The notes under the pieces: model-generated | The model's input: the letters and a program-made list of their open reading frames with translations, nothing else | Database searches by the model: none | Told to the model about the DNA's origin: nothing | Shown: positions 2,930 through 56,602 of the stretch, piece after piece | How the letters are laid out: each line of letters starts with the position of its first letter | Numbering within the stretch: position 1 is the stretch's first letter | Program-made: the position numbers and the translations under genes | Source of the DNA: Pseudodesulfovibrio indicus | GTDB taxonomy: Bacteria > Desulfobacterota > Desulfovibrionia > Desulfovibrionales > Desulfovibrionaceae | Reading direction: 5' to 3' | Assembly (NCBI RefSeq): GCF_001563225.1 | Contig: NZ_CP014206.1 | Location: 992,001-1,056,000 of the forward strand | DNA length: 64,000 nucleotides

Positions 2930-3006
2930 TTGGAAAGGGGATGGGGGGCCAGGGGGAAACCTTTTGCAAAAGGTTTCCCCCCCTTCTCCCTGCCCGCCGG
3001 AGGCGT
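2930..3006 (-). repeat. Element I half, inverted orientation (hairpin 2952-2981)
   Basis: A perfect 14-bp stem GGGGGAAACCTTTT / AAAAGGTTTCCCCC with a 2-nt apex is followed by GCCCGCCGGAGGCG, the reverse complement of the GCCTCCGGCGGC box that opens forward copies. It is the same family as the copies at 20002, 22692, 27419, 45453 and 56326. Confidence 0.75.
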
Positions 3007-18215: not shown

Positions 18216-19303
18216 TGAAAAAGCTCCTCTTCATACTCATCGCCCTGCTCCTCACCGGCGGCGGGGTCTGGTACTTCACCGCGGGCCAGTCCAAGGACCG
18301 CATCAAGGTGCTCAAGACCGACACCGTCAAGCGGGGCTCCGTGGCCCGCGTGCTGGAGGCCACCGGCATCGTCAAGGCCCAGGTCGGCGCCCAGGTCAAG
18401 ATCGGCGCCCAGGCCACCGGCGTGCTCGAATCCGTGCCCGTCAAGGTCGGCGACCGCGTCAAGAAGGGCGACCTCGTGGCCCGCATCGACTCCCGCGAGC
18501 TCAAGGCGCGCATCGCCGAGGCCCGCGCCAACCTCGAACTGGCCCAGGCCAAGCTCGACTACATGGAAAAGAACCTGCCGCGCAAGCGGTCCCTGGTGCA
18601 GAAGAAGCTCGAAGCCCAGGACACCCTGGACGTGGCCACCCAGGACGCACAGATCGCCCGGCACACCGTGGCCTCGGCCGAGGCCAAGCTGCGCACCCTC
18701 CAGATTCAGCTTTCCTACACCAGCATCTATTCGCCCATCGACGGCGTGGTCAGCCAGGTGGCGGCCCAGGAGGGCGAGACCGTGGTCTCCGGCCTGTCCG
18801 TGTCCAACCTGATCACCGTGCTCGAACCGGACAAGCTCGAAATGTGGATCTACGTGGACGAGACCGACGTGGGCCGGGTCAAGGCCGGGCTGCCCGTGCG
18901 CTACACCGTGGACGCCTACCGCGACAAGGTCTTCGAGGGCGAGGTGGACCGCATCTATCCCGAACCGGAAATCCGCGACAACATCGTCTACTACCGCACC
19001 CTGGTGAAGGTCACCGCCGACCAGGCCGGGTTCCTGCGCCCGGAGATGACCACCCAGTGCAAGATCGTCGTCCAGACCAAGGACGACGTCCTGATCGTGC
19101 CCAACAACGCCCTGAAGTGGGTCAAGGACCGCCAGGTCTGCTTCCGGGTCACTGACCCCAAGCTCGAACCCGAAGAGGTCGAACCGACCCTCGGCCTGAT
19201 CGGGCTCGAAACCTCCGAGGTCCTGGACGGCCTCTCCGAAGGGGACGTGGTCGCCACCCAGCTCGTGCTGCCCGGCGCCAAGGTCGGCAAGAAGGGATTG
19301 TGA
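18215..19303 (+). CDS. MacA-like periplasmic adaptor subunit (HlyD family)
   Basis: A 362-residue membrane fusion protein with an N-terminal anchor (about 3-20), lipoyl halves (VKIGAQATGVLESVPVKVGDRVKKGDLVARID near 60-92 and YTSIYSPIDGVVSQVAAQEGETV near 165-195), an alpha-helical hairpin between them (about 95-160), and beta-barrel and membrane-proximal domains after 200. This is the MacA layout. Start and stop overlap the flanking genes (TAATG at 18213 and TGATG at 19301), which shows tight translational coupling with the YkgJ and ATPase genes. It should join an inner-membrane ABC exporter to an outer-membrane channel; no TolC is in the window. Confidence 0.93.
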   Translation: MKKLLFILIALLLTGGGVWYFTAGQSKDRIKVLKTDTVKRGSVARVLEATGIVKAQVGAQVKIGAQATGVLESVPVKVGDRVKKGDLVARIDSRELKARIAEARANLELAQAKLDYMEKNLPRKRSLVQKKLEAQDTLDVATQDAQIARHTVASAEAKLRTLQIQLSYTSIYSPIDGVVSQVAAQEGETVVSGLSVSNLITVLEPDKLEMWIYVDETDVGRVKAGLPVRYTVDAYRDKVFEGEVDRIYPEPEIRDNIVYYRTLVKVTADQAGFLRPEMTTQCKIVVQTKDDVLIVPNNALKWVKDRQVCFRVTDPKLEPEEVEPTLGLIGLETSEVLDGLSEGDVVATQLVLPGAKVGKKGL

Positions 19304-20031
19304 TGAGCGACCCCGCCATCTCCCTGACCGGGATCACCAAGACCTTCTTCCAGGGCAAACAGGACGACGAGCCCGGCATCGAGGTGCTCAAGGGAATCAC
19401 CCTGGACGTGGCCCAGGGCGAGTTCGTCGCCCTTCAGGGAACCTCCGGGTCGGGCAAGTCCACCCTGCTGCACATCATCGGCCTGCTCGACCGGCCCACC
19501 GACGGACAATACCGGCTCCTGGGCCAGGACGCCGCAGGCCTCGACGACGACCACCAGTCCGACCTGCGCAACCGGGCGCTCGGCTTCGTGTTCCAGTCCT
19601 TCTACCTCATCTCCTACGCCACCGCGCTGGAAAACGTCATCCTGCCCGGCCTCTACTCCGGCAAACCGCGCAGCCGGCTCGTGGCCCGCGCCGAGGAGCT
19701 CCTCGACCGCGTCGGCCTGGCCGACCGCATGCACTTCAAGCCCTCGCGGCTGTCCGGTGGACAACAACAGCGCGTGGCCATGGCCCGCGCCCTGCTCAAC
19801 GATCCCCAAATCCTCCTGGCCGACGAACCCACCGGACAGCTGGATTCCAATACCTCCGCCGAGATCATGAAACTGTTCCACGACGTGCACCGCGCCGGGC
19901 AGACTATCATCCTCGTCACCCACGACGAAGACGTGGCCGCCGAAGCCGACCGCATCATCCGGCTCCACGACGGCCGCATCGCCGAAGACGTCATGAAGAA
20001 TGCCTCCGGCGGCCAGGGGGGAAACTTTTGA
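19303..20031 (+). CDS. MacB-type ABC transporter ATP-binding protein
   Basis: A 242-residue ATPase with Walker A (GTSGSGKSTLLH), the Q-loop GFVFQSFYLI, the signature LSGGQQQRVAMARALL, Walker B ILLADEPTGQLDS and the switch His LVTHDED. In MacB proper this domain is fused to the permease, but here it is separate. It overlaps the adaptor stop. Its last residues (NASGGQGGNF) and stop codon are encoded by an element I repeat that begins at 20002, so the C-terminus has probably been remodelled by the repeat. The natural end of the domain is near GRIAEDVM. Confidence 0.93.
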   Translation: MSDPAISLTGITKTFFQGKQDDEPGIEVLKGITLDVAQGEFVALQGTSGSGKSTLLHIIGLLDRPTDGQYRLLGQDAAGLDDDHQSDLRNRALGFVFQSFYLISYATALENVILPGLYSGKPRSRLVARAEELLDRVGLADRMHFKPSRLSGGQQQRVAMARALLNDPQILLADEPTGQLDSNTSAEIMKLFHDVHRAGQTIILVTHDEDVAAEADRIIRLHDGRIAEDVMKNASGGQGGNF

Positions 20032-20092
20032 AAAAGTTTCCCCCCTGGACCCCCCTTCAAAACTTTTTGGGTGCCTTCGGCAAGTCCGTGCG
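20002..20092 (+). repeat. Element I, forward half (hairpin 20013-20048)
   Basis: It opens with GCCTCCGGCGGCC, then a perfect 17-bp stem CCAGGGGGGAAACTTTT / AAAAGTTTCCCCCCTGG with a 2-nt apex, then GGACCCCCCTTCAAAACTTT and TGCCTTCGGCA. It overlaps the end of the ATPase gene and provides its stop codon. Confidence 0.9.
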
Positions 20093-20204
20093 TGAGCGGG
20101 AAGGCGAGTGTTGGGGGAGAGAAGAGTGGGGGGAGGCGTGATATGACGGCGTCAAAAGGTTTGGTTGGAATTTGAACGGTTAGAACGACGATAACTCGGA
20201 TACC

Positions 20205-20264
20205 CCCTTCGCGAAGCGACCCGAAAAGTTTGGGAAGGGAGAGGGGATGGGGGTCCGGGGGAGG
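20205..20264 (-). repeat. Element I, inverted half without its hairpin
   Basis: The stretch TTCGCGAAGCGACCCGAAAA, GTTTGGGAAGGGAGAGGGGA, GGGGGTCCGGGGGAGGCG matches the inverted halves at 27419 and 56490 up to the base of the stem, where it stops. It forms an inverted pair with the forward half at 20002. GGGGGAGG here probably serves as the ribosome-binding site of the next gene. Confidence 0.7.
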
Positions 20265-20275
20265 CGACGACAACG

Positions 20276-21505
20276 ATGATACGGACCGTGATGCGTGTGG
20301 TGAGCATGGGCTTGGAGGCTGTTTGGGCCTTCAAGTTGCGGTCTGTTTTCGTGGTTTTGGGCGTGGCCTTCGGGATCGCGTCGTTGACCCTGATCGTCAC
20401 GGCGGTGGACGGGGCGAACCGCAAGGCCGTGGAGATGGTCGAGATGTTCGGGCCGGACGCGGCGCTGGTGTTCGGCGGCAATTTCCAGAAGCGGGCGGTG
20501 GGCATGCGCACCCTGACGCTCAGCCGCGAGGACGCGGCGCGCATCCGGGATTCCCTGCCGGGCGCGTACCAGGTGCTGCCCATGCGGTCCAAGGGCGGCC
20601 AGACCGTGAAGGCGGGCAGCCGCAACTATCAGGACGTGCAGATCGTCGGCACCACCGAGAACTATGCCCAGGCCTGGAACTGGCCGCTGGCCGAGGGCCG
20701 CGACATCACCGCCGAGGACGAGCGCATCGGGGCCAAGGTCGCCATCCTGGGCGAGACGCCAGCCCGCGAGCTGTTCGGCGACCTGTCGCCCGTGGGCAAG
20801 GTGGTCTACATCTCGGACATCCCGTTCCAGGTGGTGGGCAAGCTCGCCTACCGGGGCGTGACCTCGGGCCGGGGCGGCGACGTGGACAACCGGATCATCA
20901 TCCCGCTCTCCACCCTGGTCCAGCGCTACAACATGGACCGCCAGTATTTCCGGGCGTTGCGCGTCAAGTTCGTGGAGGCCGAGCACATGGGGGCCTACAC
21001 CGAAAACCTGCGCTCCCTGCTGCGCCACCTGCACCATCTGGCCCCGGAAGAGGACGACGACTTCACCATCCTGACCGCCGACGAGGTCCTCAAGTTCCTG
21101 TCCATGTTCAAGGGCGGCCTGACCCTGTTCCTGGGCGTCACTGCGGGCATAGCCGTGCTCGTGGGCGGGTTCGTGCTGGCCAACCTGTTCTCCATCTCGG
21201 TCTCGGAGCGGGCCGAGGAGATCGGCCTGAAAAAGGCCATGGGCGCGCGCAATTCGGCCATCATGCTCCAATTCCTGGTGGAGGCCTGCGCCCTGACCCT
21301 GCTCGGCGGCGTGCTCGGCCTGTTCCTCGGCCTGGGGCTGGGCCAGTTTCTCTCCCGCCTCGACATCCTGACCATCCAGTTCTCCTGGAAGGCGTTCCTC
21401 ATGGCCCTGGCCGGGTCCCAGGCCGTGGGCCTGATCTTCGGCCTCAAGCCCGCGCGCCAGGCCGCCTCCCTCGATCCCATCCAGGCCCTTCGCGGCGAGG
21501 GGTAG
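20276..21505 (+). CDS. MacB/FtsX-type ABC transporter permease
   Basis: A 409-residue permease. It has a first helix at about 20-45 (SVFVVLGVAFGIASLTLIVTA), a periplasmic MacB_PCD domain at about 50-275, then three helices at about 285-310, 330-360 and 370-395. The coupling loop is SVSERAEEIGLKKAMGARNSAIM, and the end LKPARQAASLDPIQALRGEG is the standard family C-terminus. It pairs with the ATPase at 19303 and the adaptor at 18215 as a split MacAB-like exporter. A repeat pair of about 240 bp separates the ATPase and permease genes. The exported substrate is unknown. Confidence 0.92.
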   Translation: MIRTVMRVVSMGLEAVWAFKLRSVFVVLGVAFGIASLTLIVTAVDGANRKAVEMVEMFGPDAALVFGGNFQKRAVGMRTLTLSREDAARIRDSLPGAYQVLPMRSKGGQTVKAGSRNYQDVQIVGTTENYAQAWNWPLAEGRDITAEDERIGAKVAILGETPARELFGDLSPVGKVVYISDIPFQVVGKLAYRGVTSGRGGDVDNRIIIPLSTLVQRYNMDRQYFRALRVKFVEAEHMGAYTENLRSLLRHLHHLAPEEDDDFTILTADEVLKFLSMFKGGLTLFLGVTAGIAVLVGGFVLANLFSISVSERAEEIGLKKAMGARNSAIMLQFLVEACALTLLGGVLGLFLGLGLGQFLSRLDILTIQFSWKAFLMALAGSQAVGLIFGLKPARQAASLDPIQALRGEG

Positions 21506-22691: not shown

Positions 22692-22792
22692 GCCTCCGGC
22701 GGCCGGGGCGCTGCCTCGAACCCCGCCAGGGAACCCTTTGAAAAGGGTTCCCTGGACCCTCCCAAACTTTTTGTGTGCCTTCGGCAGGTGCG
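22692..22792 (+). repeat. Element I, forward half (hairpin 22726-22755)
   Basis: It starts with GCCTCCGGCGGCC and has a 14-bp perfect stem CCAGGGAACCCTTT / AAAGGGTTCCCTGG with apex GA, then GGACCCTCCCAAACTTTTTG and TGCCTTCGGCAGG..CGTGCGG. The region 22684-23336 (653 bp) holds this half, two long inverted repeats and the inverted half at 23215, but no gene. Confidence 0.85.
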
Positions 22793-23080: not shown

Positions 23081-23159
23081 CGATTTCGGGCGGAAAAAAC
23101 TGCGTGCTTCTTTTGGTGAAGAAGCACGCAGTTTCGTCCGTTTTTTCCGCCCGAAATCG
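23081..23159. repeat. 30-bp inverted repeat with a bulge
   Basis: The left arm 23081-23110 pairs with the right arm starting at 23121, interrupted by a 9-nt insertion in the right arm. The inner stem is AAACTGCGTGCTTC / GAAGCACGCAGTTT and the outer stem is CGATTTCGGGCGGAAA / TTTCCGCCCGAAATCG. It is one of the longest stems in the window. Confidence 0.75.
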
Positions 23160-23214: not shown

Positions 23215-23315
23215 GAGCGAAGCGAGCGCCAAGAAGTTTTGGAGATTCTTAAGAACCTTTTTCAAAAGGTTCTTAAGCGGGTCTAGGACAGCGCCCTGGC
23301 CGCCGGAGGCCTCCC
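23215..23315 (-). repeat. Element I, inverted half (hairpin 23248-23277)
   Basis: AGCGAGCGCCAAGAAGTTTT is followed by a 14-bp stem CTTAAGAACCTTTT / AAAAGGTTCTTAAG with apex TC, then CGGGTC and GGCCGCCGGAGGC. The stem sequence is unlike other copies, but the apex and flanks are the same. It pairs with the forward half at 22692. Confidence 0.8.
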
Positions 23316-27418: not shown

Positions 27419-27547
27419 CCCGATCTCCGCCTTCGCCGCAGGCGACCCGAAATGTTTGGGAAAAGGAGGGGATGGGGGTCCGGGGGAAGGGGAGGAAAGA
27501 ACCCTTTTCAAAGGGTTTTTCCTCCCCTTCCCCCGGCCGCCGGAGGC
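27419..27547 (-). repeat. Element I, inverted half (hairpin 27480-27536)
   Basis: CGCCGCAGGCGACCCGAAAT, GTTTGGGAAAAGGAGGGGAT, GGGGGTCC, then a long stem of about 27 bp with apex TC, then GGCCGCCGGAGGC. The last GGAGG is 7 bases before the ATG of the HD-domain gene and is its ribosome-binding site. No forward half is present here. Confidence 0.85.
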
Positions 27548-45452: not shown

Positions 45453-45592
45453 TGCCTCCGGCGCTGGGGGAAGGGAGGGAAAAACCCTTTGAAAAGGGTT
45501 CTTTCCCTCCCTTCCCCCAGACCCCCAACCCTCCCTTTTCCCAAACTTTTCGTGTGCCTTCGGCAGGGCCGTGCGGACGCAGGTGTCCGTGC
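45453..45592 (+). repeat. Element I, forward half (hairpin 45464-45520)
   Basis: GCCTCCGGCG opens the copy; a stem of about 27 bp (CTGGGGGAAGGGAGGGAAA / TTTCCCTCCCTTCCCCCAG with CCCTTT/AAAGGG at the apex) has one bulged base. It continues with ACCCCCAACCCTCCCTTTTC and TGCCTTCGGCAGG. It follows the stop of the MotE-like gene by 8 bp. No gene lies in 45445-45794. Confidence 0.85.
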
Positions 45593-45644
45593 GGCTTTTT
45601 TTAACTAAAACAGGTGAAACGGCACGGCCTTTCTTCACCCTCGC

Positions 45645-45752
45645 CATTCGCGAAGCGACCCAAGAAGTTTTGGGAGGATGAGGGGGAGGGGGTCCGGGGG
45701 AGGGGGAGAAGGGGCCCTTTTCCAAAAGGGCCCCTTCTCCCCCTCCCCCGTG
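45645..45752 (-). repeat. Element I, inverted half (hairpin 45696-45749)
   Basis: CATTCGCGAAGCGACCCAAG and AAGTTTTGGGAGGATGAGGG lead to a perfect 26-bp stem with apex CC (45722-45723). The arms contain GGGGGAGGGGGAGAAGGGGC and its complement. It forms the inverted partner of the copy at 45453. Confidence 0.9.
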
Positions 45753-56325: not shown

Positions 56326-56423
56326 TGCCTCCGGCGGCCAGAGGGGAAACTTTTGAAAAAGTTTCCCCTCTGGACTCCCCTTCAAAACTTTTTGTGTGCC
56401 TTCGGCAGGGGCGTGCGGGAGCG
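56326..56423 (+). repeat. Element I, forward half (hairpin 56338-56373)
   Basis: GCCTCCGGCGGCC, then a perfect 17-bp stem CCAGAGGGGAAACTTTT / AAAAGTTTCCCCTCTGG with apex GA, then GGACTCCCCTTCAAAACTTT and TGCCTTCGGCAGG. It starts four bases after the purN stop. No gene lies in 56323-56608. Confidence 0.9.
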
Positions 56424-56489: not shown

Positions 56490-56602
56490 CCGCGAAGCGG
56501 CACCAAAAAGTTTGGGAAAAGGAGGGGATGGGGGTCCGGGGGAAGGGGAGGAAAGAACTCTTTTCAAAGGGTTTTTCCTCCCCTTCCCCGGCGCCGGAGG
56601 CG
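56490..56602 (-). repeat. Element I, inverted half (hairpin 56536-56591)
   Basis: GCGAAGCGGCACCAAAAAGT, TTGGGAAAAGGAGGGGATGG, GGGTCC, a stem of about 26 bp with an apex mismatch, then GGCGCCGGAGGCG. Its GGAGG at 56596-56600 stands 8 bases before the exonuclease ATG and is the ribosome-binding site. It is the inverted partner of the copy at 56326. Confidence 0.9.

Follow-up and report, generated by a model that had tools for sequence, protein, structure and literature searches.

What kind of element are the hairpins that recur between the genes of Pseudodesulfovibrio indicus, and what accompanies the change of their stem sequences from copy to copy? We followed this question from the intergenic element at positions 20002 to 20265 of a 64,000-nucleotide window (bases 992001-1056000 of the 3.97-Mb single-contig genome) to its copies in the rest of the genome. 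The original prediction had described nine window hairpins with TTTT-NN-AAAA-like apexes and flanking boxes as BIME-like pairs of intergenic elements. All nine are present where it placed them: six have perfect stems (14, 17, 14, 14, 26, and 17 pairs), in those starting at 27480 and 45464, 24 of 27 positions pair without gaps, and the one starting at 56536 has 17 of 27 pairs ungapped, one arm having an indel relative to the other. Perfect stems of at least 14 bp with loops of 2-6 number nine in the whole window (other stems are among these, and they are not the same nine), compared with 0, 0, and 0 in three mononucleotide shuffles. Rfam gave no match above the gathering score in the window. 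What the original prediction missed is a third strand that covaries with the hairpin.

In the usual order, each half of an element begins with box A, which a short extra module follows in some copies, and continues with a purine-rich arm (R), an apex like TTTTGAAAA, the complementary arm (Y), the third segment (Y'), and finally box B. Box A, GCCTCCGGCGGCC, is a GCC-TCC-GGC mini-hairpin with 109 exact copies in the genome (59 on the plus and 50 on the minus strand; reversed-pattern control, 1/0). Box B is a mini-hairpin such as TGCC-TTC-GGCA or TCGC-TTC-GCGA, and its form TGCCTTCGGCA has 19 plus-strand and 7 minus-strand copies genome-wide (control, 1/1). Boxes A and B, proposed earlier as flanking boxes, are therefore real, whereas a further one, AAAACTTTTTG, is the end of the third segment, which covaries with the stem. 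The purine tracts are up to 24 nt long; Y' starts mostly with ACCCC, ACTCC, or AATC and ends with AAACTTTTTG or alike. The element at the starting locus consists of the following parts.

20002..20014, plus strand: box A of the left half (GCC-TCC-GGC mini-hairpin), exact pattern
20013..20048, plus strand: main hairpin, R arm - TTTTGAAAA apex - Y arm, 17 pairs
20049..20069, plus strand: third segment Y', ACCCCCCTTCAAAACTTTTTG, parallel complement of the hairpin
20072..20082, plus strand: box B mini-hairpin TGCC-TTC-GGCA
20209..20219, minus strand: box B of the right half (TCGC-TTC-GCGA on the minus strand)
20232..20254, minus strand: third segment of the right half; main hairpin missing (some congeners have a hairpin in the right half)
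20260..20265, minus strand: box A remnant of the right half

Covariation of the third segment with the hairpin arms

We read 101 of the 109 exact box-A halves, in 80 stretches and the window, and dropped seven of them before counting, five with a weak hairpin (L012, L020, L034, L065, and L078) and two with an insert in the apex (L027 and L048). The stems vary in sequence and keep their pairing, as had been proposed: in six equal-length stem classes, 885 of the 910 cells are paired, counting G-T, and 4 to 16 pairs per class occur with at least two Watson-Crick types. The third segment follows these changes. Y' is the parallel complement of the R arm, that is, the mirror of the Y arm, read in the same direction as the hairpin, as in the R/Y' pairs GGGGGAAGGGGAGAGGG/CCCCCATCCCCTCTCCC, GGGGGAAGGGAGGG/CCCCCATCCCTCCC, GGGGGAAGGGGGAAGGG/CCCCCATCCCCCAACCC, and AGAGGGAAAA/ACTCCCTTTC.

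In the 67 distinct halves with a purine tract of at least 6 (43 distinct tracts), the mean alignment score of Y' against R was 9.76 in parallel, 5.57 in antiparallel orientation, and 5.34 with swapped partners, and the best of 2000 partner permutations reached 6.43. Half by half, the parallel alignment won over the antiparallel one 49 times, tied 8 times, and lost 10 times. When Y' was swapped between tracts of equal length (n=144), the fit became worse in 97 cases, equal in 15, and better in 32. At the 33 tract columns that vary between G and A, Y' has C opposite 144 of 159 G but opposite just 12 of 103 A. The fraction of allowed triads, ungapped, was 0.94 over 59 distinct triples, as against 0.844 in equal-length shuffles (standard deviation 0.014, maximum 0.879 of 500).

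Strict ungapped exact-complement runs of at least 10 were parallel in 60, antiparallel in 4, and identical in 0 of 350 hairpin-strands of this genome (the 80 stretches, the window not included), and in relatives the corresponding counts were 9, 0, and 0 of 42. On these runs and the alignment scores, we reject an antiparallel pairing of Y' with R, and direct identity of the two segments likewise. A pairing between Y' and the partner half was set aside on reading the copies, as the two halves often differ in tract. A triad-compatibility score of at least 14 was reached by 90 of 134 intergenic hairpin-strands with box A, 11 of 348 intergenic ones without it, and 1 of 212 coding ones; by eye, two of the 11 box-A-less scorers are a box-A copy read on the wrong strand, and the others resemble the family.

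The same relation recurs far outside the genus. Within the phylum, the pattern CCARRGGG-N-CCCYYTGGAMYCCC, with arm and third-segment letters left free, matched 8 of 297 genomes (reversed control, 0), and a slightly longer pattern matched at least 119 stretches in named genomes. We read 80 loci among the matches listed, which gave 89 module matches from Clostridia, Ruminococcus, Chloroflexi, Streptomyces, Amycolatopsis, Methylobacterium, Acetobacteraceae, Desulfovibrionaceae, and others; several genomes contribute more than one, and all module counts below refer to these matches. Two variable positions of the Y arm predict Y' in 85 of the 89 modules (TT gives AT in 35/36, CT gives CT in 24/26, TC gives AC in 6/7, and CC gives CC in 20/20), compared with a mean of 27.3 and a maximum of 45 in 10000 permutations. 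With identical cores counted once, the prediction holds in 71 of 75. R and Y disagree in 19 of the 89 modules, and there Y' follows Y in 16 cases, one of which (L136) spans two modules, and R in 3. The lone deviant is R in 16 modules, Y in 3, and Y' in 1.

Triplex modules with a box-A-like CCTCCGGCGG ahead of them occur in Oscillibacter (L149), Aminicenantes (L160), and bacterium D16-76 (L192), hosts far from Desulfovibrionaceae, and a Clostridia contig (L129) carries a similar long-apex hairpin within an opposed pair.

Probable folding strand and placement

To our knowledge, a mirror (parallel-complement) relation is needed only by Hoogsteen-type triplexes. Among the classes of intrastrand triplexes distinguished by Holder et al., class I (RH-R-Y) uses the purine motif and class III (R-Y-H) the pyrimidine motif (PMC4666352). 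The strand running from box A to box B would be class III and its complement class I. On the complement, the three adjacent segments fit G.G-C, A.A-T, and T.A-T triads on one strand. The choice between the two strands can be approached at the GAAG steps, opposite which Y' reads AT in 46, AA in 8, TT in 2, and GT in 1 of 57 cases. The complementary strand is favoured because an A of Y' opposite an A-T pair reads there as T.A-T, which the purine motif allows; in the pyrimidine motif the same A is a mismatch. The mismatched positions in the cross-phylum modules (17 with R=A and Y=C, 2 with R=G and Y=T) point to the same strand, on which the A-C excess becomes G-T pairs. The mini-hairpins do so as well: TNC loops, with N free, close 69 of 80 box-B hairpins (TTC 55, TGC 11, TAC 2, TCC 1; control, 6/45; 14 of the 94 counted halves lack such a hairpin), the loop of box A is TCC, and on the complement these are C(GNA)G loops, described as very stable DNA mini-hairpins (PMC6479982, citing Yoshizawa 1997 and Hirao 1994). 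Stem mismatches within the P. indicus genome did not hold as a sign of strand (A-C 16 versus G-T 29 over whole stems); the G-T mismatches lie mostly at the apex, in stems with shifted register. Since purine-motif triplexes cannot form in RNA according to Holder et al. (PMC4666352), a DNA structure is the best fit, the choice of strand being less certain.

We therefore consider it probable, judging from sequence, that the family forms intrastrand purine-motif DNA triplexes. In each half, one DNA strand would fold as a hairpin and the third segment would return into its groove to give an intrastrand triple helix, with the order R'-R-loop-Y from box B to box A (class I; G.G-C, A.A-T, and T.A-T triads) and the two C(GNA)G mini-hairpins of boxes A and B flanking it. 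The triplex would form transiently in cells when replication or transcription separates the strands, and the folded element would stall polymerases, as such sequences do in vitro. Such an element may be tolerated or useful mainly behind gene ends and terminators, where its role could be polymerase stalling or topological buffering behind genes. Here about 100 copies with dozens of tracts give compensatory change over three strands. Compensatory change is the usual evidence for RNA stems; for intrastrand triplexes we found none in print, and this family is the strongest comparative signature we found for repeats of that kind. If the reading is true, it would be unusually direct evolutionary evidence for triple helices kept by cells. 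The family supplies test sequences with natural variants, and the mirror-of-Y-arm rule can serve to search any genome for such elements.

The choice of A or T in Y' opposite A-T pairs depends on the neighbour (counted over all halves, not just distinct ones): T stands opposite the A of G[A]G in 68/79, A opposite the first A of GAA in 56/76, and T opposite the last A before G in 56/68. A Selenomonadaceae contig (L143), fetched by a pattern search for another feature, carries two A/T-rich hairpins with the pyrimidine arm first, each with a long parallel-complement segment after it (strict scores 24 and 20), a class II arrangement with a TTTT/AAAACTTT-like apex.

The chances seem to us evenly balanced that several phyla keep DNA modules of this kind, some of them arrayed, whose third strand is selected to fit a triple helix, so that the three-way covariation would be evolutionary evidence that intrastrand DNA triplexes form and matter in cells. 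That wider reading also takes in the strand choice, the GNA mini-hairpins, the neighbour-dependent choice of A or T, and the opposite orientation (class II) at L143.

The halves are placed with respect to genes, whose ends were taken from our own codon-GC-based gene caller. Of the 101 box-A copies read, 79 face a gene 3' end, 48 of them within 18 nt of the stop codon and 27 at 44-82 nt. The 87 regions comprise 44 convergent, 40 tandem, and 1 divergent, with 2 lacking an assignment; among the neighbouring gene pairs of the window, 9 of 63 are divergent and 10 convergent. Because the regions were selected by box A, absolute frequencies are not genome averages. Forward and inverted halves occur together, as the original prediction described, in 34 simple pairs, all with box A outward and 0 with box A inward, and 7 further regions have three halves; its claim of opposed halves needs correction at the starting locus, where the hairpin of the right half (20209-20265) has been lost and just the third segment is left. 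The halves of tandem regions face the 5' side of the next gene in 32 cases and a 3' end in 28. As these numbers are about equal, the pair is the unit, and an arrangement of one half per gene 3' end is rejected.

The location behind stop codons would also suit an RNA element, in which the A-to-B transcript forms a pyrimidine-motif R-Y-Y' triple helix (class III) in the 3' untranslated region and protects mRNA ends. Pyrimidine-motif intrastrand triplexes are possible in RNA (Holder et al., PMC4666352), and the stem mismatches of the genome itself are not contrary to the A-to-B strand. We nevertheless regard this alternative as unlikely, since A stands opposite A-T pairs at 54 of 57 GAAG steps, the G-C-rich tract would require protonated C, the cross-phylum mismatches and TNC loops favour the complementary strand, and the halves of tandem regions face a 5' side about as often as a 3' end.

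Known repeat families and intractable gaps

The nearest published kind of element is the BoxC/PIT/TM_ECO group of intrastrand triplex repeats (Holder et al. 2015, PMC4666352, who cite Hoyne and Maher), not REP. TM_ECO is class II (Y-R-RH) with 9 triads and one consensus, its E. coli copies are highly alike, and repeats of its type were found in 262 proteobacterial genomes (PMC4666352). Five cases in E. coli are inverted repeats of two motifs, each with a type A and a type B; the triplex was demonstrated in vitro by circular dichroism and by nuclear magnetic resonance with many sharp imino signals, polymerase stopped before the motif under the assay conditions, and a link to genomic instability is described (PMC4666352). 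Like these repeats as described there, the P. indicus family is intergenic and G/C-rich, has purine-motif intrastrand triplex potential, and includes inverted pairs. In contrast to TM_ECO, it is class I; its tracts, which reach 24 nt, covary over three strands, it has GNA mini-hairpins and box A, and it favours gene 3' ends, whereas TM_ECO lies more often upstream than downstream of open reading frames (PMC4666352). The TM_ECO consensus, CCCTCNCCC N3-6 GGGNGAGGG N3 GGGNGAGGG, had 0 exact matches in the genome. H-DNA mirror repeats share the mirror-symmetric purine-pyrimidine tract (Y-GGA-Y') with the family, which differs in adding an inverted repeat, so that one single strand suffices for a triplex. 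What is new is thus a long class I relative of the BoxC/PIT/TM_ECO repeats, laid out like BIMEs; a literature search, made mostly without subscription journals, found no published account of this family or of its third strand.

The BIME-like layout had led the original prediction to REP elements as the nearest analogy, and it holds for the intergenic, structure-conserved, opposed halves. High copy number, extragenic palindromes, and opposed pairs behind genes recall REP, BIME, and REPIN elements, and one pair contains an insertion-sequence-like (IS-like) insert (L064), as reported for REPs (PMC1525189). The REP/RAYT origin was not supported. The stem sequence is not conserved, a third strand is added, and Pfam PF01797, the match expected for a RAYT (a Y1 transposase), gave 0 matches in the genome, with control matches in 5 of 14 genomes. 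Tags within 12 nt of the hairpin feet in the 94 halves were GTAG 0, CTAC 0, CGTC 1, and GACG 0. Across the genus, PF01797 matched in 9 of the 22 genomes compared, this genome being one of the 22, and no relation to box-A counts was visible by eye. RAYT mobilisation is rejected on these grounds.

Congeneric genomes illustrate the turnover of the copies. The ABC ATPase gene (19300-20031) and the MacB-like permease gene (20276-21505) that enclose the starting element adjoin in congeners as well; 11 of 14 loci were readable across, L250, L253, and L262 being left out as they do not hold both genes. By eye, the spacer contains a pair with other stem sequences in G001, G002 (whose right half lacks a hairpin), G007, G010, and G019. 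Only single halves or remnants are left in G003, G004, and G018, and the spacers of G006 (88 nt), G015 (63 nt), and G021 lack a recognisable copy. Three other copies of P. indicus (L027 on the minus strand at 1550, L048 at 1023, and L065 at 1016) share nearly the same insert of about 70-100 bp, with hairpins of its own, in the apex; they are alike from box A to the end of Y' and then differ (by eye), which suggests that the A-to-Y' block is copied between sites. The insert is possibly another small repeat family. Conversion or local copying, rather than a RAYT, appears to maintain the elements and to reshuffle them, and under the triplex reading, too, they would spread by local copying.

Block copying could also mean that these are ordinary REP/BIME- or MITE-like palindromes in which Y' merely hitchhikes within an A-to-Y' block copied as a unit, as the opposed pairs, the three insert-bearing copies, and the different stems at the orthologous site would allow. 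This explanation is improbable: hitchhiking does not produce a mirror relation across many tracts (the comparison covered 43 distinct purine tracts), the lone deviant in the modules of other lineages is R in 16 and Y' in just 1 of 89, and both the GTAG tag and PF01797 are missing, as given above.

A second published case concerns six 'intractable' gaps of Desulfovibrio desulfuricans ND132, all at gene junctions, which were closed by Hurt et al. (2012; PMC3409199). Polymerases stopped hard at them, and for gaps 5 and 6 amplification with Taq required 7-deaza-dGTP, which alone was insufficient to sequence these two (PMC3409199). Hurt et al. ascribed its effect to weaker Watson-Crick pairing and stacking and suggested terminators; the gaps are described as GC-rich secondary structure, neither the third strand nor the repeat family being recognised, and the word 'triplex' has 0 occurrences in the main text (PMC3409199). 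The five printed gap sequences look like the P. indicus family. The full 63 nt of gap 5 aligns to a copy of the P. indicus genome with a score of 50, whereas the best shuffled query, run on a quarter of the loci, reached 21. Gap 4 (14 nt) matches part of such a copy without a difference, and gaps 2 and 6 lie clearly, and gap 1 slightly, above shuffled-query scores. The tail of gap 5 with at most 2 mismatches had no match in 60 relatives. Hoogsteen pairing needs N7. The effect of 7-deaza-dGTP may be due to loss of N7, a reading that we add to the published one, and the family offers a reason why parts of a Desulfovibrio genome resisted sequencing.

Several points weigh against the triplex reading. 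The weakest part of the reading is the apex, where C stands opposite C in 168 of 200 cases, which fits only the less usual parallel G.G-C triad; the triad table for apex and GAAG steps was moreover made with a scoring that accepts allowed triads. Mismatches in the purine tracts of the genome itself are A-C in 5 and G-T in 2 cases, and over whole stems 16 and 29. Of the 144 equal-length swaps of Y', 32 favoured the wrong partner, and swapping Y' among copies of similar length lowered the score merely from 22.7 to 18.7. Because copies share descent and exchange parts, the counts lack independence, and the 89 cross-phylum matches listed include more than one from several genomes. At named loci, strict runs of at least 10 were just 4 parallel, 1 antiparallel, and 1 identical of 284. 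A loose generic finder was barely above its reversed control (16 versus 10, and 92 versus 64 matches), probably owing to the near-symmetry of homopurine tracts. Probing of E. coli with dimethyl sulfate in vivo revealed no stable TM_ECO triplex (Holder et al., PMC4666352). Finally, strand-displacing Pfu amplified all ND132 gaps, and the GC-Rich PCR System gaps 5 and 6, with natural nucleotides (PMC3409199), so that hairpins or G-quadruplexes could explain the stops.

A G-quadruplex on the G-rich strand (with an i-motif on the C-rich one) would make the mirror symmetry a by-product of G-run content. A motif of four G3+ runs on the box-B-to-box-A strand occurs in 44 of 78 distinct halves, and 7-deaza-dGTP would weaken a quadruplex, too. 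However, the motif is absent in the other 34, of which 27 have a tract of at least 6, and 21 of these 27 keep the mirror rule at 0.9 or higher; G runs are too few in short cross-phylum modules such as CCAAAGGG...CCCTTTGG|AATCCC, and a quadruplex does not need a matched order of runs, which together make this explanation improbable as well. Strong intrinsic terminators, as suggested by Hurt et al. for the ND132 gaps, are very improbable in spite of the location behind genes and of the 28 of 36 close-lying gene ends facing a paired half that have no other terminator by our criterion, since none of the eight window hairpins in the scanned stretches (that at 2952 lies outside them) was listed as terminator-like, a terminator already stands between the stop codon and box A at 15 of the 23 gene ends that lie farther away, the T run stands at the far end of the third segment and not directly after the stem, and PIT elements are reported to lack terminator activity (PMC4666352).

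Other copies in the window and side observations

The remaining hairpins of the window belong to the following halves.

2932..2951, minus strand: third segment of a single half; weak match, by eye
2952..2981, minus strand: main hairpin, 14 pairs
2994..3004, minus strand: box A (GCCTCCGGCGG)
22692..22704, plus strand: box A, then a short extra module to 22725
22726..22755, plus strand: main hairpin, 14 pairs
22756..22773, plus strand: third segment ACCCTCCCAAACTTTTTG
22776..22786, plus strand: box B TGCCTTCGGCA
23229..23247, minus strand: third segment AATCTCCAAAACTTCTTGG, right half
23248..23277, minus strand: main hairpin, right half, 14 pairs
23298..23310, minus strand: box A, right half
27446..27479, minus strand: third segment of a single half; outer limit approximate
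27480..27536, minus strand: main hairpin, 24/27 pairs ungapped
27535..27547, minus strand: box A
45454..45463, plus strand: box A (GCCTCCGGCG)
45464..45520, plus strand: main hairpin, 24/27 pairs ungapped
45521..45552, plus strand: third segment ACCCCCAACCCTCCCTTTTCCC...
45555..45565, plus strand: box B TGCCTTCGGCA
45660..45695, minus strand: third segment, right half; limits approximate
45696..45749, minus strand: main hairpin, right half, 26 pairs; without box A
56327..56339, plus strand: box A
56338..56373, plus strand: main hairpin, 17 pairs
56374..56394, plus strand: third segment ACTCCCCTTCAAAACTTTTTG
56397..56407, plus strand: box B TGCCTTCGGCA
56502..56535, minus strand: third segment, right half; outer limit approximate
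56536..56591, minus strand: main hairpin, right half, 17/27 pairs ungapped (indel)
56592..56601, minus strand: box A, right half (GCCTCCGGCG)

At the starting locus, the ABC-transporter ATPase gene runs into the element, and its last residues, ASGGQGGNF, and stop codon come from box A and the hairpin; the orthologues in G002, G007, and G010 seem to stop before the element (by eye). Exact box-A copies cluster, with 60 of the 109 within the first 1.32 Mb of the 3.97-Mb genome. Terminator-like hairpins occur in the spacer between the halves in 10 of 37 pairs, in the window at 45565-45598 and 23097-23134. In L064, an IS-like insert with ends GGGGCTGACATAGAT lies at about 1170-1960 between the halves of one pair; it contains an ISXO2/IS1595-like transposase reading, named by eye, and a similar end abuts a half in L067.

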